Assembly (NCBI RefSeq): GCF_030908405.1
Contig: NZ_CP133089.1
Span: 558,001-622,000, forward strand
Direction of reading: 5' to 3'
Length of the DNA stretch: 64,000 nucleotides
Source of the DNA: Aminobacterium sp. MB27-C1
GTDB lineage: Bacteria; Synergistota; Synergistia; Synergistales; Aminobacteriaceae
The translations under genes and the position numbers were made by a program. The stretch's first letter is position 1. Each line of letters begins with the position of its first letter. This document shows, piece by piece, positions 35,066-45,498 of the stretch. Under the pieces are notes generated by a model, which was not told where the DNA came from, searched no databases, and worked only from the letters and a program-made list of their open reading frames with translations.

Positions 35066-35299
35066 TGGACAGAAAAAATAAAAGAATTTTTGATCATTTT
35101 ATTTTCATTTAAGGGCTACAATTATTAACCTCTTGATGTATAATTGAAGTACATTATCGTATATCTTGAATAATGCCAATCTTGAGTATTTTCAAATTTA
35201 GTTGTTGAGTGTGGGGAGGTGGAAGAGGAAAAAATAGAGTGAGAGTCGAATGTTACAAAAGTTTTTAGTAGTCAGATGAAAAGGGGGGTTATATGGAAG

Positions 35300-36637
35300 A
35301 TGAGTAACAATGGAGAGAGAGAACAGTGGGGAAGTAGAATAGGTTTTATTCTTGCGGCCGCTGGTTCAGCCGTTGGTTTGGGAAACATTTGGCGTTTCCC
35401 TTATATCACTGGCCAAAATGGTGGAGGAGCTTTTGTTCTTATTTATGTTGCACTTGTTTTTGTTATCGGCTTCTCCGTTATGCTTGCAGAGGTAGCCATT
35501 GGACGTCGCGCTCAGTTGAATGCTGTAGGGTCATTTAAAAAATTAAAAGGTGGAGCTTGGCCGATCGTTGGCTGGATGGGTGTCGCTGCAGGGTTTATTA
35601 TTTTGTCTTATTACGGAGTTATTGGCGGTTGGACTATTAAATACTTTATTAGCTCATGGACAGGGCTCATGGAAGCAGGAGCTGCTGGCAAGGCTGGAGA
35701 TGTATTTGGCGGTTTCGTAACAAATACGCCACAAGTTATTATGTTCCAAGCGCTTTTTATGATAGTAACTATTTGGGTTGTCTATCGTGGTATAGGCGAA
35801 GGAATTGAAAAGTATTGTAAAGTGTTGATGCCAGCGCTTTTTGTAATTCTTTTGATTCTTATTGTTCGTTCTGTGACTCTTGAAGGCGCAGGAAAAGGGC
35901 TTGAATTCTATCTTAAACCCGACATGTCGAAAATTACCGGAGATACTTTCTTGGCAGCGTTAGGTCAGGCTTTCTTCTCTCTTTCTCTTGGCATGGGATG
36001 TATGATTACGTATGGCAGCTATTTGACGAGAAATACGACAATACCAAGTGCTGTTGGTCAGATATGCTTTATCGACACAATGGTAGCCTTACTTGCTGGT
36101 CTCGTTATTTTCCCGGCAGTTTTTGCATTTGGTGTCGAAGCCGGAGCTGGCCCGGGGCTTACATTTGTTACGTTGCCATCTGTCTTTTCTCAGATGCCTG
36201 GTGGTCCCATTTGGTCATCACTATTCTTTTTGCTTCTCTTCATAGCGGCGCTAACGTCTGCTATTTCTTTGCTTGAAGTGGTTTCTGCTTACTTTATCGA
36301 TGAAATGGGATGGGGACGACCCAAGGCTGCGTTGCTTATGGGACTGACAATTTTCCTGTTGGGTATTCCTTCTGCAATTTCTCTTGCAGGCAATTTGAAA
36401 GTTGCGGGAAAAGATTTCCTTGATGCGGCGGACTTTTTGGCTTCTAACGTGTTGTTACCTTTAGGTGGACTCTTCATTGCCCTTTTTGTCGGCTGGGTCT
36501 GGACAGAGACTGCGCGTAAAGAGGTTAGCAACGATGGCACATATCAATTTGGTCTGATGGATGTATGGATTTGGATATGTAGAACTGTTGCCCCAATAGC
36601 CATTGCTATCATTTTCTGGCAGGGGTTGAAATGGTAA
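35300..36637 (+). CDS. Sodium:neurotransmitter symporter (NSS/SNF) family amino-acid transporter
   Basis: A 445-residue LeuT-fold transporter with about 11-12 hydrophobic helices. The family signature is REQWGSRIGFILAAAGSAVG with LGNIWRFPYITGQNGGGAF in TM1, which carries Na+ and substrate contacts. Na+-coupled uptake of an amino acid is expected. Its place directly before the glycine riboswitch and grd operon suggests glycine or a related amino acid, but this is inference. ATG 35300 fits the AAAAGGGGGG site slightly better than ATG 35276, which overlaps it. A TATAAT at 35139-35144 may be its -10, but no matching -35 is seen. It is followed by its own terminator, so it is a separate unit from grd. 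Confidence 0.9.
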   Translation: MSNNGEREQWGSRIGFILAAAGSAVGLGNIWRFPYITGQNGGGAFVLIYVALVFVIGFSVMLAEVAIGRRAQLNAVGSFKKLKGGAWPIVGWMGVAAGFIILSYYGVIGGWTIKYFISSWTGLMEAGAAGKAGDVFGGFVTNTPQVIMFQALFMIVTIWVVYRGIGEGIEKYCKVLMPALFVILLILIVRSVTLEGAGKGLEFYLKPDMSKITGDTFLAALGQAFFSLSLGMGCMITYGSYLTRNTTIPSAVGQICFIDTMVALLAGLVIFPAVFAFGVEAGAGPGLTFVTLPSVFSQMPGGPIWSSLFFLLLFIAALTSAISLLEVVSAYFIDEMGWGRPKAALLMGLTIFLLGIPSAISLAGNLKVAGKDFLDAADFLASNVLLPLGGLFIALFVGWVWTETARKEVSNDGTYQFGLMDVWIWICRTVAPIAIAIIFWQGLKW

Positions 36638-36705: not shown

Positions 36706-36736
36706 ACAGGGGGGAGAATAATTCCCCCTGTATTTT
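36706..36736 (+). terminator. Terminator of the NSS transporter gene
   Basis: ACAGGGGG (36706-36713) pairs with CCCCCTGT (36724-36731), followed by ATTTT. It isolates the transporter from the riboswitch-controlled operon. Confidence 0.75.
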
Positions 36737-36782: not shown

Positions 36783-36810
36783 TTGACTATCATCACTTAT
36801 AGTGTAGAAT
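36783..36810 (+). promoter_or_regulatory. Promoter of the glycine reductase operon
   Basis: TTGACT (36783-36788), a 16-base spacer and TAGAAT (36805-36810). Predicted transcription begins near 36817, just before the riboswitch aptamer. Confidence 0.7.
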
Positions 36811-36832
36811 CATAACAGATTGCCGGAGGAAG

Positions 36833-37001
36833 GTCGCAAGAGAGTCCTTTTTACTATGGTAGAGGGGCGCCGAAGGGGCAATGTTTTTAGGTGTAGGAAC
36901 CTTAAAATGGAAACTCTCAGGCACAAGGATTGCGACTGGACGGGTCTCTGGAAGAGTTAGCCGCTCTTTTCATAGAGCCAGATTGGGCTATGCGACAGAG
37001 A
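36833..37001 (+). promoter_or_regulatory. Glycine riboswitch: one full aptamer followed by a ghost aptamer
   Basis: The aptamer is closed by P1 GTCGCAA (36833-36839) with TTGCGAC (36930-36936). Inside it are the conserved core GGGCGCCGAAGGGGCAA and AAACTCTCAGGCACAAGGA, both near-consensus for glycine aptamers. It is followed by the linker GACGGGTCTCTGGAAGAG. A second unit (36945-37001) has TCTCTG pairing with CAGAGA, TAGCC with GGCTA and GCTCT with AGAGC, but lacks the glycine-binding core: this is the arrangement called a ghost aptamer in singlet glycine riboswitches. It sits between the promoter and grdX, so it should couple glycine reductase expression to cytoplasmic glycine. Confidence 0.93.
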
Positions 37002-37009
37002 TTGTCTTA

Positions 37010-37031
37010 CCTATAGAATCGATATAGGAGG
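37010..37031 (+). promoter_or_regulatory. Hairpin that can mask the grdX ribosome-binding site
   Basis: CCTATA (37010-37015) pairs with TATAGG (37023-37028). The latter contains the first bases of AGGAGG (37026-37031), the grdX ribosome-binding site. No T-run follows, so translational rather than transcriptional control by the riboswitch is plausible. Confidence 0.5.
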
Positions 37032-37039
37032 CAGTGTAT

Positions 37040-37456
37040 ATGGGTCGCAAGCTCCTCGTAACAAATAATAAAACTCTTTGTAAGAGAGTGAAAAATGTCG
37101 AATGTGTAGAAGGATCGTCATTCGACGTTTTGGTTGTAGCTCGTGATTATATCCATCAAGGATGGGTTCTTTTGTCACATCCGCTTTATGGTAATTTGCG
37201 CCCCTATCAGCATCCTTTCCGTTCCCTTCTTTTAGAAGCTCCAAGTGAAAATTCTGTACGTCAAGTAGATACATATTCCCTTGAGCTTATAGAAAACGCT
37301 CTTTCGATTTATCGTTCTTGTGGAGAGAGGATACTAAAAGTCTCGTCTCTATCAGAGGAAATGATAGATGATTTCTCATTTCTTGATAAGGAACTTATTA
37401 AAGAAAGTCTGAATAAGTATTCAATGTTTTTCTCTGCTGGGGATGAGCAGAGATAA
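37040..37456 (+). CDS. grdX: GrdX protein, glycine reductase operon
   Basis: A roughly 138-residue protein of unknown function typically encoded first in grd operons. Visible segments include FDVLVVARDYIHQGWVLLSH, PLYGNLRPYQHPFRSLLL and DTYSLELIENALSIY. ATG 37040 is preferred: GTG 37034 is only 2 bases from the AGGAGG site. It lies directly behind the glycine riboswitch and before trxA and grdE. Assignment rests on position and resemblance to GrdX. It has no catalytic motif I recognise and could be regulatory. Confidence 0.8.
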   Translation: MGRKLLVTNNKTLCKRVKNVECVEGSSFDVLVVARDYIHQGWVLLSHPLYGNLRPYQHPFRSLLLEAPSENSVRQVDTYSLELIENALSIYRSCGERILKVSSLSEEMIDDFSFLDKELIKESLNKYSMFFSAGDEQR

Positions 37457-37519: not shown

Positions 37520-37843
37520 ATGGCAATGGTCGAATTGACGAAAGAGAATTTCGATGCAGAGGTAAAGGAGAGCAGTCTCCCTGTACTCGTCGACTTTTGG
37601 GGCCCTAAGTGTGGTCCTTGTATGGCCCTTCTTCCCAACGTACATAAAATGGCCGAGGAGTTTGAAGGAAAAGTCAAGTTCACTTCTGTTGATGTTTCTC
37701 AGAACCGTCGTGTAGCTATCAACAATAGGGTGATGGGATTACCCACATTCCTTTTCTGGAAAGATGGCAAAGAGGTTGCACGTATTAGCGGTGCTGAGGT
37801 TACCCTTGAGAAAATCAAGGAAAATGTAGAGAAATTACTGTAA
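37520..37843 (+). CDS. trxA: Thioredoxin of the glycine reductase system
   Basis: A 107-residue thioredoxin fold. The active site is CGPC in VDFWGPKCGPCMALLPNV; the Pro-Lys in place of the usual Ala-x before the first Cys is typical of grd-operon thioredoxins. The cis-Pro loop is VMGLPTFLFWKDGK. It would supply electrons to the GrdA selenol/thiol. The ribosome-binding site AAAGGAGGTGA is near perfect. Unlike the classical clostridial operon, no thioredoxin reductase (trxB) gene is present next to it. Confidence 0.93.
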   Translation: MAMVELTKENFDAEVKESSLPVLVDFWGPKCGPCMALLPNVHKMAEEFEGKVKFTSVDVSQNRRVAINNRVMGLPTFLFWKDGKEVARISGAEVTLEKIKENVEKLL

Positions 37844-37872: not shown

Positions 37873-39159
37873 TTGAAATTAGAACTCCATAACGTAAAAG
37901 TTAGTAAACTTGCATGGGGAGACAAGACAACAGTAAAAGACGGCGTTCTCTATGTCAACAAAGAAGAGCTTATTGCAAAGCTTTCCGATGACGAGCGTCT
38001 TGCTAAAATTGATGTTGATCTTGCTATGCCCGGCGAGAGCGTACGTATCCTTCCAGTGAAGGATGTTGTTGAGCCTCGTTGCAAACTCGAAGGCTCTAAC
38101 GAAGTATTCCCCGGTTTCATCGGCGATGTAGACACCGTCGGCGAGGGCAAGACTCTCGTGTTAAAAGGTGCTGCCGTTGTAACAACGGGAAAAATAGTTC
38201 GTTTCCAGGAAGGCATCATTGATATGATGGGTCCTGGTGCGGAGTATACTCCTTATTCTCAGACCAACAACGTCGTACTTGTTCTTACTCCCGTTGATGA
38301 TCTTGAGAAACACGATCATGAAGCAGCATGCCGTATGGCTGGCCTTAAGACCGCTGCTTACCTTGCCCAGAGCTGCAAGGAAGCAAAAGCTGACGAGGTC
38401 GAGACTTACGAGCTTCCTTCCTTCAACGAAGCTATGCATGCCTATCCTGAGCTTCCTAAAGTAGCATACCTCTATATGCTTCAGTCTCAGGGACTTCTTC
38501 ACGATACCTATGTTTACGGTGTAGACGCCAAGAAAATTCTTCCCACATTCATCAACCCGACAGAAGTTTTTGATGGCGCTATCGTTTCCGGAAACTGCGT
38601 TTCCGCTTGCGATAAGAACAACTCCTATGTTCACCTCAACAACCCTGTCATCAAATCCATGTTTGATCGCCACGGAAAAGATTTCAACTTCATCGGCTGC
38701 ATCATCACCAATGAGAACGTAACCTTGGCCGACAAGAAGAGAAGCTCTTCCTATGCTGTCAAACTTGCGAAGACACTTGGCGTAGACGGCGTTCTTATCT
38801 CTGAGGAAGGCTTTGGTAACCCCGATGCCGACCTTATCATGAATTGCTGGAAAGCCGAGCGCGCCGGAATCAAGACCACTCTTCTTACTGACGAATATGC
38901 TGGTCAGGACGGCGCAAGCCAGTCTCTTGCAGACTCCTGCAAAGAGGGCGATGCCTGTGTAACAGCTGGTAACGCTAACGAAGTTATCGTACTTCCTCCA
39001 ATGGAGAGAGTTATCGGCATTCCTGAAGAAGCCAACACTATCGCTGGCGGCTGGCAGGGTTCCCTTGCTGAAGACGGCACAATTACCGTTGAGTTGCAGG
39101 CTATCCTCGGCGCTACAAGTGAGCTTGGTTACACGAAACTTGGAGCCTACACAATCTAG
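37873..39159 (+). CDS. grdE: Glycine reductase component B, GrdE proprotein (pyruvoyl precursor)
   Basis: A 428-residue precursor of the two small substrate-binding subunits of selenoprotein PB. In this family autocatalytic cleavage before a Cys generates a pyruvoyl group that binds glycine as a Schiff base. The site is Asn241-Cys242 in AIVSGNCVSACDKNNSYVHL, the same Cys number as in characterised GrdE proteins. The start is TTG 37873 behind AAGGGGGGGAG. It lies between trxA and grdA in the standard order. Glycine specificity rather than sarcosine or betaine is inferred from the riboswitch and operon. Confidence 0.95.
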   Translation: MKLELHNVKVSKLAWGDKTTVKDGVLYVNKEELIAKLSDDERLAKIDVDLAMPGESVRILPVKDVVEPRCKLEGSNEVFPGFIGDVDTVGEGKTLVLKGAAVVTTGKIVRFQEGIIDMMGPGAEYTPYSQTNNVVLVLTPVDDLEKHDHEAACRMAGLKTAAYLAQSCKEAKADEVETYELPSFNEAMHAYPELPKVAYLYMLQSQGLLHDTYVYGVDAKKILPTFINPTEVFDGAIVSGNCVSACDKNNSYVHLNNPVIKSMFDRHGKDFNFIGCIITNENVTLADKKRSSSYAVKLAKTLGVDGVLISEEGFGNPDADLIMNCWKAERAGIKTTLLTDEYAGQDGASQSLADSCKEGDACVTAGNANEVIVLPPMERVIGIPEEANTIAGGWQGSLAEDGTITVELQAILGATSELGYTKLGAYTI

Positions 39160-39214
39160 TTTTCAGTAGTGTAGGAAGTTCCTTATAAAAAAGACTAAAA
39201 AGGAGGTGCGAAGC

Positions 39215-39691
39215 ATGGGCAAATTGGCTGGAAAAAAAGTTCTTCTTCTTGGCGAGCGCGATGGCGTTCCAGGACCTGCCATGGAAGCATGCTTCAAAGA
39301 TAGCGGCGCTGAGGTTGTCTTCTCAGTGACCGAGTGTTTCGTCTGAACGGCTGCAGGAGCCATGGACTTGCAGAACCAGCAGCGTGTTAAAGATGCTGCT
39401 GAAAAGTATGGAGCCGAAAACGTAGTAGTAATTCTTGGTTCTTCTGATGCAGAAGGCGCTGAGATTTACGCTGAAACAGTAACAAACGGTGATCCTACTT
39501 TCGCTGGTCCTTTGGCTGGAGTTCCGTTGGGACTCGCAGTATACCACGTATTTGAGCAGGAAATTCGCGATGAAGCCGATGAAGCGGCTTGGGAAGATCA
39601 GATCAGCATGATGGAAATGGTTCTCGACCCCGAGGCACTTTCTGCTGCTGTAAAATCTATGCGCGAAGAATTTAGTAAGCATACATTATAA
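39215..39691 (+). CDS. grdA: Glycine reductase selenoprotein A, GrdA (UGA = Sec44)
   Basis: 158 residues when the in-frame TGA at 39344-39346 is read as selenocysteine. The sequence around it is the invariant [12 protein letters not shown], with Sec at codon 44 as in characterised GrdA proteins. The N-terminus is [20 protein letters not shown] and the C-terminus covers [20 protein letters not shown]. GrdA carries the carboxymethyl group from PB as a Se-carboxymethyl selenoether to PC, and is re-reduced by thioredoxin. AAGGAGGTG precedes ATG 39215. An uninformed gene caller would split it into two fragments. Confidence 0.97.
39349..39361 (+). promoter_or_regulatory. Possible SECIS element of grdA
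   Basis: GGCT (39349-39352) pairs with AGCC (39358-39361), 2 bases after the UGA. An alternative stem CTGCA (39351-39355) with TGCAG (39369-39373) is also possible. Neither is as convincing as the grdB element. Confidence 0.4.
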
Positions 39692-39716: not shown

Positions 39717-41024
39717 ATGACTTACCGTGTCGTTCATTATATAAATCAGTTCTTTGCAGGTATTGGCGGTGAGGAGAAGGCTGATTATTTACCAGAGCTT
39801 CGTGAAGGTGTAGTAGGCCCTGGTATGGCCCTTAATGCAGCATTTAAAGGAGAAGCCGAAATAGTCGCCACCGTTGTCTGTGGAGATACATACTTTGCTT
39901 CCAATATGGAAGAAGCAACAAAGACGATTCTTGATATGGTGAAAAAGAGCAATGCCGATGCTTTTATAGCTGGCCCTGCTTTTAACGCTGGACGTTATGG
40001 CACAGCTTGCGGCGCTATTTGTTCCGCAGTTTCCAAAGAGCTTGGCGTTCCTGTCGTTTCCGCCATGTATCCTGAAAACCCCGGCGTTGAGATGTATAGA
40101 AAGAACCTTTTCATCGTAGAGGCTGCTGACAGTGCTCGCGGAATGGGTAAAGCAGTGCCTGCAATGGCTGCTCTTCTTCTCAAACAGCTTAAGGGAGAGA
40201 AAATTGGTCTGCCCACAGAGGAAGGCTACATTGAGCGCGGTGTTCGAATCAACAAGTTCTATGAGAAACTTGCTGCCGAGCGCGCTGTTGACATGTTTGT
40301 AGCAAAAATGCAGGGCAAACCTTTCACAACTGAATATGCAATGCCTGTCTTTGACAGAGTAGCTCCAAACCCTGCCATTAAAGACCTTAAAAATGCCACT
40401 GTTGCTATTGTTACATCTGGTGGTATTTGCCCCAAAGGAAACCCTGATCATATCGAGGCTTCCAGTGCCAGCAAATATGGCGAATATGATATTACCGGCG
40501 TAGATGACCTTACAGCTGAAGCTTACTGCACAGCCCACGGTGGCTATGACGCTACCTATGCTGACCAGGATGCCGACAGAGTTCTTCCTGTTGACGTACT
40601 GAGAGAGATGGAAAAAGCCGGAGTATTTAAAAAGCTTCACAATAAATTCTATACAACAGTTGGTAACGGTACTGCCGTAGCCAGCGCAAAACGTTTCGGT
40701 GCCGAAATTGCTGAAAAATTAAAGAAAGACGGCGTCGATGCGGTAATATTAACATCCACCTGAGGAACTTGTACTCGTTGCGGTGCAACGATGGTAAAAG
40801 AAATTGAGCGCGCTGGTCTTCCAGTCGTTCACGTTTGTACAATCGTTCCTATTTCCTTGACTGTTGGTGCTAACAGAATCGTTCCAGCTGTTGCCATTCC
40901 TCACCCCCTGGGTGACCCAACAAAGCCTTTCGAGGAAGAAAAAGCAATTCGTCGGCATCTCGTAGAGAAAGCTCTGAAAGCCCTTCAGACAGAAGTCGAC
41001 GATCAGACAGTTTTCACAGACTAG
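39717..41024 (+). CDS. grdB: Glycine reductase component B, selenoprotein GrdB (UGA = Sec349)
   Basis: 435 residues when TGA 40761-40763 is read as selenocysteine, in the canonical ST-U-GTCTRCGATM context. The upstream part includes YRVVHYINQFFAGIGGEEKA and VVCGDTYFASNMEEA, the downstream part LTVGANRIVPAVAIPHPLGD. With the pyruvoyl subunits from GrdE it forms the glycine-specific PB, whose Sec accepts the carboxymethyl group after cleavage of the imine. ATG 39717 follows GAAAGGAGGGG. A stable hairpin lies in the gap before grdC. Confidence 0.97.
40775..40791 (+). promoter_or_regulatory. Bacterial SECIS hairpin of grdB
   Basis: TCGTTGC (40775-40781) pairs perfectly with GCAACGA (40785-40791) around a GGT loop, beginning 11 bases after the UGA. 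The GG/GU-containing apical loop and the spacing match bacterial SECIS elements recognised by SelB. Confidence 0.8.
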
Positions 41025-41062: not shown

Positions 41063-41119
41063 TATCTCTTATTGTAGAATAATAAAGAAAGATTGTTAAT
41101 TGAGGAGGTTTTTGCAGCC

Positions 41120-42649
41120 ATGTCCAGTGTTGGTATTAAAGGTTACGCTTACTGCCTGAACCACGTCCCCGAACTGGGTCTCCATTATGGGAACACCCCT
41201 TACGTTGAGAGGCACCATCATAAAGGAGAGAGTGAGTATTTAAAAAATTTACCGGAACATATGCAGTCCTTTGAGGATGCAAGAGATTATGCTCCCAACC
41301 AGGCTTATATTGGCGGTTTCCCTCTTTCCGAGTATGAAGCCAAGAAACAGCCCTGGTATGAAAATCGTTTAACAGGTTCAAGCCGTTATGGCAAGTTTGG
41401 TGAAATCATGCCCGAGGATGAATTCCTTGGACTCATGGATATATGCGACGTCTTCGATATTATTTGGCTTGAGAAAGGTTTTGCAGCCAGCGTAAAAGAG
41501 AAGCTCGCCCAGGATCCAATAATTAATGATCATGTTCTTGCCCGTCTTGAGGCAGGACACGACCTTTCCGAAATAGAGACAGAAGTGAAAGATCATTTAG
41601 CTTTGCCTCTCTATTTTGACAATAAAGTTGTAGGATGCGCACGTAACGGTCACGAGGTTGACGAGTGCCTTTTCGCCTACGTATTACTTGAAAATTTAGC
41701 TTGTAAGGCTGGCGGAGTATTGGCCCTTCTTCACATGTTGGAAAATACAGGCGTTGCTCCTGAGGAAATCGATTTTGTTATCGAGTGTTCTGAAGAGGCT
41801 GCCGGAGATATGAACCAGCGTGGCGGCGGCAACTTTGCAAAATCTGTTGCTGAAATCGCAGGCTGTGTAAATGCAAGTGGATGTGACGTTCGTGGATTCT
41901 GTGCTGGCCCTGTTAATGCTATGCTTGCAGCGGCATCACAGGTTGCTTCCGGTCTTCGTAAAAACTGTGTCGTGCTCGCTGGTGGAGCTATTCCTAAGCT
42001 TTACATGAACAGCCGCGACCATGTTAAAAAGGGAATGCCTGCACTGGAAGATTGCCTTGGAAACTTTGCAATTATGCTTGTGCCCGATGATGGTACAAAT
42101 CCAGTAATTCGCCTTGATGCTGTGGGTAAGCACTCTGTAGGTTCCGGAGCTTCCCCCCAGGCTGTTACCTCTGCCCTCGTTTTCGAGCCTTTGCAGAAAA
42201 TTGGTTTGACATTTACAGATGTAGATAAGTTTGCAGCTGAACTTCACACACCTGAAATAACACTTCCTGCCGGCGCCGGCGACGTGCCTCTTGCAAGCAC
42301 AAAAATGATTGCTGCGTTAGCTGTTATGAAGAAAGTTATTGAGAAAGCCGACATGATGAACTTCGTAAAAGAGAAAGGTCTCGTTGGATATGCCCATACA
42401 CAGGGACATATCCCTTCTGGAGTTCCTTTCGTTGGCCCAGCTTGCGAAGCCATTAAAGAGGGTTCTATGAACCGGGTAATGATCATCGGTAAGGGAAGTT
42501 TGTTCCTTGCACGTTTGACCAACCTGGCTGACGGAGCTTCCTTCCTTATCGAGCCGAGCAGCGGTGGTGCTGGAGCTGCCGTGAGCAAGGAAGATGTTAA
42601 AGCGCTGATTCTCGAGGTTCTTTCTGAGATCACGGAAAAGCTCCAGTAG
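41120..42649 (+). CDS. grdC: Glycine/sarcosine/betaine reductase component C, large subunit GrdC
   Basis: A 509-residue beta subunit of protein C, which turns Se-carboxymethyl-GrdA into acetyl phosphate with GrdD. Features seen: GIKGYAYCLNHVPELGLHYG at the start, the conserved NTPYVERH, and thiolase-like glycine-rich segments such as NASGCDVRGFCAGPVNAMLA and QGHIPSGVPFVGPACEAIKE. ATG 41120 follows TGAGGAGG; the frame extends upstream without support. Component C is shared by glycine, sarcosine and betaine reductases. grdD follows after 19 bases. Confidence 0.95.
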   Translation: MSSVGIKGYAYCLNHVPELGLHYGNTPYVERHHHKGESEYLKNLPEHMQSFEDARDYAPNQAYIGGFPLSEYEAKKQPWYENRLTGSSRYGKFGEIMPEDEFLGLMDICDVFDIIWLEKGFAASVKEKLAQDPIINDHVLARLEAGHDLSEIETEVKDHLALPLYFDNKVVGCARNGHEVDECLFAYVLLENLACKAGGVLALLHMLENTGVAPEEIDFVIECSEEAAGDMNQRGGGNFAKSVAEIAGCVNASGCDVRGFCAGPVNAMLAAASQVASGLRKNCVVLAGGAIPKLYMNSRDHVKKGMPALEDCLGNFAIMLVPDDGTNPVIRLDAVGKHSVGSGASPQAVTSALVFEPLQKIGLTFTDVDKFAAELHTPEITLPAGAGDVPLASTKMIAALAVMKKVIEKADMMNFVKEKGLVGYAHTQGHIPSGVPFVGPACEAIKEGSMNRVMIIGKGSLFLARLTNLADGASFLIEPSSGGAGAAVSKEDVKALILEVLSEITEKLQ

Positions 42650-42668
42650 TAGGAGCGAGGTGAGCAGT

Positions 42669-43820
42669 ATGAGTGAAATCAGGCGTCTAGTCGGGGAGGC
42701 TCTCTCCGAAATAGTTGAAACAGCTAAAAGTGGCGGTCCTCGCATCAGCGTAGGACTTATGGCTACTGGAAGTGAACATGGAGGAGAAGAGCTGGCGAAA
42801 GCTGGTGTTCTGGCTCAGGCACAGTATCCCAACGTCAAGGTCGTTATGATCGGTCCCAAAGTGGATGGATATGATGAGCTTGAATGGATTGAAACTCCTA
42901 ATTGTGAGGCAGATGTTTCTTCCGCAATGGAGAAAGCCATAAAAGAGGGAGTTATACAGGGTGCTGTCGCGATGCACTATCCTTTCCCCATGGGAGTAAC
43001 AACTATTGGACGTGTTGTAACTCCTGCTAAAGGAAAAGATATGATTATCGCTTCTTCCACAGGTACTTCTGCTATTCAGAGAGTTGAAGCCATGGTTAAG
43101 AATGCGATTTACGGTATTGCCGTTGCCAAGTCTATTGGTAAAGAGAATCCGACGGTAGGTATATTAAACGTAGAAGGAGCTCAGCTTGTTTTCAGAGCTT
43201 TAAGCCAGTTGAAAGAGAAAGGCTACGATATTACCTTTGGAACAAGCATTCGTAAGGATGGCGGTTCTGTCCTTCGTGGGAACGATATCCTTGCTGGTGC
43301 CGTTGATGTGTGTGTTAGCGACACATTGACAGGTAACGTGTTGATGAAGGTATTCTCTTCATTTAACACAGGTGGTTCCTATGAGGCTCTCGGTTGGGGT
43401 TACGGCCCATCAGCTGGTGAAGGCTGGCCTCACGTTATTTCCATTATTTCAAGAGCTTCCGGTGCTCCTGTAATTGCTAATGCCTTAGCTTATAATGCAG
43501 CTGCGGTTCGTGGAAATCTTCCTGCAGTTGTTGCTGAGGAAATTGCGAAAGCAAAAAGTGCTGGACTTGACGATATCATTGCGGCCCTGCAGCCCAAACC
43601 TGCGGCTGCAGAAGAGGAGATAACACCTCCTCCTGCAGAGCCGACAGATGATGAAATTCATGGGATAGACGTACTTTCCATTGAAGATGCCGTAAAGGTG
43701 CTTTGGAAAGAAAAGATCTACGCCGAGTCTGCCATGGGCTGTACAGGCCCAGTGGTGAAGTTACCGGCAAAGTATACAGAAAAGGCCAAAGAAATATTAA
43801 AGGCCAACGGATATCTCTAG
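42669..43820 (+). CDS. grdD: Glycine/sarcosine/betaine reductase component C, small subunit GrdD
   Basis: A 383-residue FabH/PlsX-like alpha subunit. Conserved parts: GLMATGSEHGGEELAKAGVL, MHYPFPMGVTTIGRV and ASSTGTSAIQRVEAMVKNA. A Pro/Glu-rich linker around residues 318-335 leads to a C-terminal piece with ESAMGCTGPVVKLP. Its Cys, about residue 358, matches the catalytic Cys359 known from Eubacterium acidaminophilum GrdD. ATG 42669 is favoured over GTG 42660, which overlaps the AGGAGCGAGG site. It is the last gene before a strong terminator. Confidence 0.94.
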   Translation: MSEIRRLVGEALSEIVETAKSGGPRISVGLMATGSEHGGEELAKAGVLAQAQYPNVKVVMIGPKVDGYDELEWIETPNCEADVSSAMEKAIKEGVIQGAVAMHYPFPMGVTTIGRVVTPAKGKDMIIASSTGTSAIQRVEAMVKNAIYGIAVAKSIGKENPTVGILNVEGAQLVFRALSQLKEKGYDITFGTSIRKDGGSVLRGNDILAGAVDVCVSDTLTGNVLMKVFSSFNTGGSYEALGWGYGPSAGEGWPHVISIISRASGAPVIANALAYNAAAVRGNLPAVVAEEIAKAKSAGLDDIIAALQPKPAAAEEEITPPPAEPTDDEIHGIDVLSIEDAVKVLWKEKIYAESAMGCTGPVVKLPAKYTEKAKEILKANGYL

Positions 43821-43919: not shown

Positions 43920-44106
43920 TTTCGTAGTTTTTAGATTGTTTAAAATCTAACAAAAAGTAGGAGGTGGTAGAAAGTTCAGTTTAGCACGTGCTTTTCGCTC
44001 CTTGAAGTTTGCACCACGAGAAAGAGTGTGTTGTGAAGAGAGTAGAGAATGACAAGAATAGAGAAAAGTCATGTTCTCTCTCATAGTGAAAGGGGGAATT
44101 GCATCA

Positions 44107-45498
44107 ATGGACGCTATTATGAAGCTGAACGGTGTAATTAATGGTATTGTGTGGGGGCCGTGGATGTTGGCTCTTTTAGTTGGCACAGGTGTTTACCTGA
44201 CCCTGATTCTCGGCTTTCCTCAGATTCGGTATTTTGTTCTTATGTTTAAGGAAGTTTTCGGTAATTTAGGTAAAAAGAAAGAAGGAGAAGGTACGATTTC
44301 TTCCTTCGCAGCTCTGTCTACAGCTCTTGCCTCAACCGTTGGAACCGGTAATATCGCCGGTGTTGCGACGGCCCTTCACCTAGGCGGCCCAGGAGCACTT
44401 TTCTGGATGCTCATTTCAGCCGTTTTCGGTATGACGACAAAAATGTGTGAAGTTACGCTGGCTGTCCGTTTCCGTGAAAAGGATGTTTTGGGGAACTGGC
44501 GCGGTGGTACCATGTATGTATTAGAAAAAGGTACCGGATATAAATGGCTTGCTTGGCTTTTCGCTCTTTTTGCATTCCTTGCCTCTTTCGGAATCGGATG
44601 TGCTGTTCAGTCAAACTCCACAGCTGAAGGATTCTTCCTTGGCTTTGGTATCCCTCAGATTTGGACAGGTATTGCAGTTGCCGTATTGACGGCTCTTGTT
44701 ATCGTTGGTGGTTTGAAACGTATTTCTGACGTTACGACATATCTTGTTCCTTTCATGGCTGTTTTTTATATTATCGGCGGCATCATTGTCGTTTTTGCTC
44801 ACGCGAGCGAAGTTCCGGCAGCATTGGCCAGTGCTGTTAAGTATGCCTTCAGTGATCCCATGGCAATGCCTGGAGCTTTAGCGGGTTGGACGATAAAGAT
44901 GGCCCTTACAAAGGGTATTGCGCGAGGAGTCTTTTCAAACGAAGCCGGTTTGGGCTCTGCCCCTATGGTTCACGCTACCGCTATAGTTGATCACCCAGTT
45001 CGTCAGGGAATGTACGGTTTGTTCGAAGTTTTTACAGATACAGTCGTTATTTGTTCTCTTACATCTTTAGCCATCATTACCAGCGGCGTTCTTACGGGAA
45101 AACCAGAGCTTTCTGGAGCTCAGCTTTCTCTTTCTGCATTCCAGGTTGTTCTTGGCGGAACCGGTACAATGATCTTATCCATAGGACTGGGATTGTTTGC
45201 TTTCTCAACAATTCTTGGTTGGTATTGGTACGGTGAAACAGCTGCTACATACATTTTTGGACCAAAAGTCATTCCTGTCATGAAAGTGCTCTGGATTATC
45301 TTCATATTCCTTGGTGCTGCTGGTGGAACCCTCCTCGGGGATGCCAGTTCCTTCTTAACAAACCTTTGGGACCTTTCAGATACATTGAATGGACTAATGG
45401 CTGCCCCTAACCTTGTTGCCCTTCTTTTACTTTCTAACGAGCTTCGTCGTCTTGTCAAAGATTTTGATGCCAAGAGAAAATCAGGAGAACTTGAGTAA
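44107..45498 (+). CDS. Alanine/glycine:cation symporter (AGCS) family protein
   Basis: A roughly 463-residue transporter with 10-12 hydrophobic helices. AGCS signatures: PWMLALLVGTGVYLTLILGF, ALSTALASTVGTGNIAGVA, the highly conserved VFSNEAGLGSAPMVHATA and GWYWYGETAATYIFG. These carry Na+ (or H+) coupled alanine or glycine into the cell. ATG 44107 is selected by GAAAGGGGGAA upstream; ATG 44071 has no site. It lies directly downstream of the grd operon but in its own transcription unit. Confidence 0.93.
   Translation: MDAIMKLNGVINGIVWGPWMLALLVGTGVYLTLILGFPQIRYFVLMFKEVFGNLGKKKEGEGTISSFAALSTALASTVGTGNIAGVATALHLGGPGALFWMLISAVFGMTTKMCEVTLAVRFREKDVLGNWRGGTMYVLEKGTGYKWLAWLFALFAFLASFGIGCAVQSNSTAEGFFLGFGIPQIWTGIAVAVLTALVIVGGLKRISDVTTYLVPFMAVFYIIGGIIVVFAHASEVPAALASAVKYAFSDPMAMPGALAGWTIKMALTKGIARGVFSNEAGLGSAPMVHATAIVDHPVRQGMYGLFEVFTDTVVICSLTSLAIITSGVLTGKPELSGAQLSLSAFQVVLGGTGTMILSIGLGLFAFSTILGWYWYGETAATYIFGPKVIPVMKVLWIIFIFLGAAGGTLLGDASSFLTNLWDLSDTLNGLMAAPNLVALLLLSNELRRLVKDFDAKRKSGELE

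Follow-up and report, generated by a model that had tools for sequence, protein, structure and literature searches.

How might a glycine riboswitch with a single aptamer control the genes behind it when its second domain lacks the ligand core? A singlet glycine riboswitch of this kind, with a ghost aptamer, was reportedly described by Ruff et al. in 2016. The leader considered here lies upstream of a glycine reductase operon in Aminobacterium sp. MB27-C1, within a stretch of 64,000 nucleotides that was analysed as a whole and that we call the window. It suggests a concrete, testable answer, in which the ghost would serve as a scaffold and also supply the switching strand.

A glycine aptamer and a ghost domain precede the grd operon

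The coordinates of the leader, its neighbors and the operon are collected in Table 1. The promoter motif, whose first base is the position at which the initial annotation began the element, occupies the same place in two congeners (L023 and L024), and a similar motif is found in three further leaders (L025, L030 and L033). Comparison of the window with the upstream regions of other loci (L002, L003, L006 to L008 and others) showed that the gene 5' of the riboswitch encodes a sodium-dependent (NSS-type) transporter in the relatives of the window and an AGCS symporter in genus g10.

Table 1. Features of the grd leader and operon in the window
Feature	Position	Strand	Evidence
Sodium-dependent transporter gene	35276-36637	+	NF037979 match
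Intrinsic terminator of the upstream transporter gene	36706-36731	+	Terminator scan; separates the leader from the transporter gene
Sigma-70-like promoter of the grd leader, TTGACT-16-TAGAAT	36783-36810	+	Consensus scan
P0 5' strand and kink-turn half, CCGGAGGAA	36823-36831	+	Partner GGACGG 36938-36943; RF03166 alignment
Glycine aptamer RF00504	36827-36942	+	Covariance model 62.8 bits, gathering score 32, E 1.2e-10 in 64 kb, full model 1-94
Aptamer P1	36832-36839 with 36930-36937	+	Probability up to 0.90 in unconstrained fold; conserved glycine-binding core
GGACGG linker (P0 3' half and kink-turn)	36938-36943	+	RF03166 alignment
Ghost domain	36946-37000	+	RF03166 match; CUCUG/CAGAG-type ghost P1 located in 95 Synergistota leaders
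Ghost P1	CUCUG 36946-36950 with CAGAG 36996-37000	+	RF03166 alignment CUCUGGA...GACAGAG
Ghost internal P3-like hairpin	CAUAGAGCC 36971-36979 with GGGCUAUG 36985-36992	+	Read from sequence
Candidate switching strand in ghost 3' half, GGGCUAUGCGAC	36985-36996	+	Complementary to grdX codons 2-5; MFE helix, swap control, covariation
SD-sequestering hairpin (predicted)	37001-37035	+	37001-37007 with 37029-37035 and 37010-37015 with 37023-37028; MFE
Shine-Dalgarno (SD) of grdX, AGGAGG	37026-37031	+	Sequence
grdX, ATG start	37040-37453	+	NF038093 GrdX (NCBIfam) 121.4 bits, cut-off 40
Candidate anti-ghost strand in grdX codons 2-5, GUCGCAAGCUC	37044-37054	+	Pairs with 36985-36996, A36990 bulged
trxA (thioredoxin)	37520-37843	+	NF047697 133 bits, just below the 140-bit cut-off
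grdE (protein B alpha subunit)	37873-39159	+	GrdG/GrdE-type family 596 bits, below the sarcosine-specific cut-off of 780
grdA (selenoprotein A) region	39200-39691	+	NF040748 266.7 bits with TGA read as Sec; start codon approximate
grdB (selenoprotein B), TGA read as Sec	39717-41024	+	TIGR01917 (glycine-type model) 672.8 bits, cut-off 602.2
SECIS_4 element in grdB	40764-40801	+	RF01990
grdC and grdD (protein C beta and alpha subunits)	41093-43820	+	NF040746 and NF040747 above cut-off
agcS (alanine/glycine:cation symporter), downstream of the operon	44071-45498	+	TIGR00835 448 bits

The leader (36817-37039) was compared with Rfam, where RF00504 recovered one significant aptamer, which is the sole glycine aptamer of the window and of the 2.43-Mb genome, in agreement with the single consensus aptamer that the initial annotation had recognized. 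The model RF03166 (glycine-GGAnGA), which describes an aptamer together with a second domain, scored 80.2 bits (E 4.6e-17) over 36823-37002. With a curated threshold of 110 bits, the leader is clearly related to that family but falls short of membership by the curated cut-off. The structured second domain without a ligand core that had been read from the letters alone was recovered as well: ghost P1 is present, and no second RF00504 match was detected near the first even at E<=10 in the 601 nt searched, on which basis the ghost was rejected as a second aptamer. Positions for tertiary A-minor contacts between ghost and aptamer appear conserved. With one aptamer and, 3' of it, a ghost stem carrying a second-domain P1, the leader is a predicted type-1 singlet. 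Its covariance score points to a genuine glycine sensor, whose response to glycine we infer.

The operon grdX-trxA-grdE-A-B-C-D is complete, with the selenoproteins GrdA and GrdB and SECIS as well as GrdE, GrdC and GrdD, and the glycine reductase operon named in the initial annotation was confirmed (NCBIfam, SECIS_4). The same genome contains a second, paralogous protein-B selenoenzyme operon (L174, 114000-126000) that has no glycine aptamer and in which a separate grdX copy sits after a grdB-like gene. Several Synergistota lineages have an in-frame TGA near the N-terminus of GrdX at one of two different positions (motifs ELU/ALU and NNARLU; 12 loci), and no SECIS family match was found for these TGA-bearing grdX genes. 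In such lineages GrdX may be a seleno- or redox protein. By eye, the GrdX of the window has Cys at both equivalent places.

Predicted pairing of the ghost with the grdX start

The leader folds with an energy z-score of -2.4 (3 of 200 shuffles were as low), and its minimum free energy (MFE) structure contains both a hairpin over the SD and a helix between the ghost and the first grdX codons. The inner stem of the hairpin, CCUAUA with UAUAGG, has a predicted probability of 0.96-1.0 and covers the first half of the SD; the MFE structure adds AUUGUCU with AGGCAGU so that the whole SD is covered. The small hairpin that had been described over the start of the ribosome-binding site (RBS) is therefore real and longer than first drawn. 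Its CCUAUA/UAUAGG stem is kept in both congeners with different loops. A terminator scan of the window leader found no terminator between the aptamer and grdX, and a run of five U between ghost and SD occurs in only one of 95 Synergistota leaders. With no terminator at this place, translational control of the grd operon is likely, as had been proposed from the lack of a T-run.

In the unconstrained fold, core pairs of the ghost-codon helix reach a probability of about 0.91 versus 0.08 for ghost P1, and the helix encloses the SD hairpin together with the AUG. A fold on which ghost P1 is imposed lies 6.3 kcal/mol higher. Opening the region from -15 to +15 around the AUG is predicted to take 21.3 kcal/mol without the ghost and 14.0 kcal/mol with it, as computed by a folding program that excludes pseudoknots, with soft constraints for the unbound energies. 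In the genus of the window, C36996 is the one nucleotide that the ghost-codon helix and ghost P1 have in common; strictly, the helix overlaps the joining segment and the P3 arm of the ghost, on which its exclusivity rests. Taken for the window species alone, the complementarity is only moderately unusual, its level being reached by 3.9% of swaps and 3.7% of shuffles.

We think it probable that this type-1 singlet is a translational ON switch for grdX-trxA-grdE-A-B-C-D. In the absence of glycine the ghost would be open and its 3' half paired with grdX codons 2-5, and the SD and AUG would be closed in by the RBS hairpin plus the ghost-codon helix. Binding of glycine to the aptamer would stabilize the ghost by way of tertiary contacts and of the kink-turn between leader and linker. 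The ghost would then take its 3' half back and the start region would open, so that glycine would induce the enzyme that uses glycine for energy. Sequence and comparison show the aptamer, the ghost, the RBS hairpin, and a ghost-codon complementarity that is conserved with compensation. In the predicted ON state the SD hairpin is still formed and opening still takes 14 kcal/mol, so that expression in this state may be modest or depend on some further aid.

The aptamer P1 5' strand, GGUCGCAA (36832-36839), is repeated exactly at 37043-37050 in grdX codons 2-4, and the congeners do not have this repeat. The copy in grdX could pair perfectly over 8 nt with the 3' strand of aptamer P1, but this pairing was rejected because it has a probability of 0.06-0.08 and is absent from the congeners.

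Ghost-start complementarity across Synergistota

Of 188 genomes of the phylum searched with RF00504, 119 carry the aptamer. We examined 131 loci, one of them possibly with a tandem pair. Families and genera bear the labels given by the search tool (such as f1 and g10), and the named matches of this survey are Synergistota. grdX is the first gene after the aptamer at 104 of the 131 loci (104 genomes, 42 genera, 9 families). At the remaining loci the aptamer is followed by gcvT (17), lipoate ligase (3), DUF5058 (2), AGCS (2), trxA-grdC without grdX (2) or a contig end (1). A curated search found GrdX in 126 genomes of the phylum; several grdX genes have no aptamer. Direct sensing of the substrate of the Stickland glycine reductase would thus be the rule across a whole phylum of amino-acid fermenters. 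The genes for lipoate-protein ligase and DUF5058 membrane proteins that directly follow an aptamer lie outside the usual gcv/AGCS list of targets.

Because the motif used to locate the ghost in 95 leaders presupposes P1 pairing, counts of P1 pairs are not independent evidence. Across these leaders, duplexes of the ghost 3' half with the start region averaged -16.4 kcal/mol for native combinations versus -11.7 kcal/mol with start regions from other families, and a decoy from the ghost 5' side gave -9.9 native versus -10.5 kcal/mol swapped. The difference in opening energy was 6.5 kcal/mol with native and 2.8 kcal/mol with cross-family swapped start regions, and 27 of 37 genera were positive in a per-genus swap test (Wilcoxon p 1.3e-4). 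The predicted direction is ON (difference above 1 kcal/mol) in 78 of the 95 leaders and the opposite in 4. Pairing of 5 nt or more between the ghost 3' half and the SD-to-codon region is seen in 27 of 37 genera and is absent in 10, mainly genus g10 and neighbors of the same family. The predicted ghost-start complementarity is therefore specific in being stronger than in cross-family swaps. An impression gained by eye, that the ghost 5' strand CUCUG is a general anti-SD, was rejected because the decoy ghost-5' segment showed no native excess.

Covariation was scored in the lineages with GACAG/CUGUC (18 distinct sequences anchored on GUCG). The pair beside the invariant core is G-C in 11 sequences, A-U in 5, U-A in 1 and mismatched in 1, and the next ghost-codon pair is U-A in 11, C-G in 2 and U-G in 1. 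Two-sided changes filled 8 cells versus 2.1 in shuffles, a count that related sequences inflate, though the types of pair are spread over different families. The covariation score was 0.182 versus 0.091 in shuffles, none of 500 shuffles scored as high, and slid versions of the alignment paired far worse. All 14 close relatives use CGC for the Arg opposite the ghost, although CGC is a minor Arg codon (14% of Arg codons in sampled window genes); of 33 sites with a conserved amino acid, no other is identical in codon. The predicted ghost-codon pairing is thus conserved with compensatory changes.

This conservation across families argues against the idea that the RBS hairpin itself is the switch, competing directly with the ghost, and that the codon complementarity is a by-product. 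The hairpin is stable, its stem is maintained in the genus, a related form occurs in genus g2, and one or two additional pairs could carry ghost P1 into the lower stem of the hairpin. That extension overlaps the hairpin by only one or two bases, however, and the hairpin forms in both predicted states. The ribosome-site hairpin of the initial annotation therefore exists but is not the predicted switching element, and we regard a switch built on it as unlikely.

Somewhat less probable is a pseudoknot in which ghost P1 and the ghost-codon helix are present together when glycine is bound, an arrangement whose outcome could be OFF. In the window genus the single shared nucleotide would permit the two helices to coexist as an H-type pseudoknot. 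In most other lineages, however, the helix takes 3-5 of the 5 nucleotides of the P1 3' strand and is incompatible with P1; it also takes the ghost P3 arm, and a catabolic operon together with the precedent of Clostridioides difficile favors ON over OFF.

Related leaders outside the phylum

In a protein scan, the grd operon turned up in genomes of the Desulfovibrio group and of Peptostreptococcaceae. Two Desulfovibrio-group leaders (L200 and L201) contain the aptamer, the ghost and a GCGCGAC/GUCGCGC ghost-codon pairing in a riboswitch-grdX-grdE operon. GrdE is 71% identical to the window protein in the Desulfovibrio group and 60% identical in Peptostreptococcaceae. The grd locus of the Desulfovibrio group was possibly acquired by horizontal transfer. 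GrdX also occurs without an adjoining grd operon at two loci outside the phylum (L163 and L164), where by eye it follows a yedF-like gene in one and gcvH in the other.

Aptamer and ghost also precede grdX in Romboutsia (L204) and in a further Peptostreptococcaceae genome (L205). In these leaders the ghost 3' strand, AACAGAG or AACAGGG, forms the 5' arm of a strong hairpin that is followed by a U-run, which is the shape of an intrinsic terminator. The same ghost strand appears to switch in both the terminator and the translation versions, each of which predicts ON.

These terminator-like hairpins at the same place are what could be said for transcriptional control in the window, by a missed terminator or by Rho acting on untranslated mRNA, with the start pairing setting only a basal level; we hold this to be very unlikely, given a window leader without a terminator and the rarity of U5 runs in Synergistota leaders. 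Least probable of all is an OFF switch by which glycine represses the operon, which would fit the SD hairpin still being held in the ghost-formed state and the OFF switches known on transporter genes (PMC5829553) but is opposed by the opening energies of most leaders, by the location of type-1 singlets mostly on glycine catabolism (93% gcv; PMC6944388), by the induction of grd by glycine in C. difficile (PMC11477304) and by the ON prediction of the Peptostreptococcaceae terminator version.

Relation to known glycine riboswitches

Translational ON control through the ghost strand, the reading that we prefer, combines known and apparently new elements. A review lists a glycine riboswitch at the C. 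difficile grd operon, where glycine raises grd transcription and the switch is taken as ON (PMC11477304). It has the same operon and ligand class as the window and was compared by its description only. Control of the reductase by a glycine riboswitch is therefore not new, and the novelty implied initially, in the remark that these riboswitches are best known upstream of gcvT and transporters, was overstated. In the related leaders L204 and L205 the ghost strand leads to a terminator-like hairpin, whereas Synergistota leaders lack this hairpin and appear translational.

Ghost-bearing singlets were also known, as was their preference for glycine catabolism, type-1 singlets being 93% gcv (Crum et al. 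2019, PMC6944388). That study sorts singlets into gcv or transporter types, and a search of its text found no mention of 'reductase' or of Synergistota. The window leader resembles a type-1 singlet with a 3' ghost in its one aptamer, P0/kink-turn leader-linker, 3' ghost P1 and glycine-catabolic operon, and differs from it in that the ghost strand is predicted to pair with codons. The gcvT riboswitches of Bacillus subtilis and Neisseria gonorrhoeae are ON switches whose OFF hairpin uses or adjoins aptamer 2 (PMC5666159, PMC13104608). The N. gonorrhoeae switch is translational, and without glycine its second-domain nucleotides form an RBS-sequestering structure much as proposed here; it is a tandem, however, and the window has a ghost without a glycine pocket that would pair with codons 2-5 (PMC13104608). 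B. subtilis gcvT shares the glycine-ON logic and an OFF hairpin adjoining the second domain but differs in its transcription terminator, tandem aptamers and glycine cleavage operon (PMC5666159).

The glycine sensor, its link to grd genes and ghost aptamers are thus already known. In the literature searched we found neither the Synergistota distribution nor a case in which a ghost strand pairs with coding sequence, and pairing of the ghost 3' half with the first grdX codons across most of a phylum looks new. We lean slightly toward a broader reading as well. In most Synergistota and in the two Desulfovibrio-group genomes, the first grdX codons would form the antisense strand of a ghost-aptamer switch, coding sequence and ligandless riboswitch domain having co-evolved. 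The ghost strand would be a modular arm directed at a terminator in Firmicutes and at the translation start in Synergistota, and tandem relics would show second aptamers decaying into ghosts.

In eight grdX leaders of the survey (L094, L099, L101, L102, L104, L105, L109 and L110) the second domain looks like an intact or decaying aptamer, with a weak second RF00504 match in L105, L109 and L110. It is possible that this group forms a series from tandem to ghost at one locus, and the grdX leader offers a single locus at which tandem, decaying and ghost second domains can be compared.
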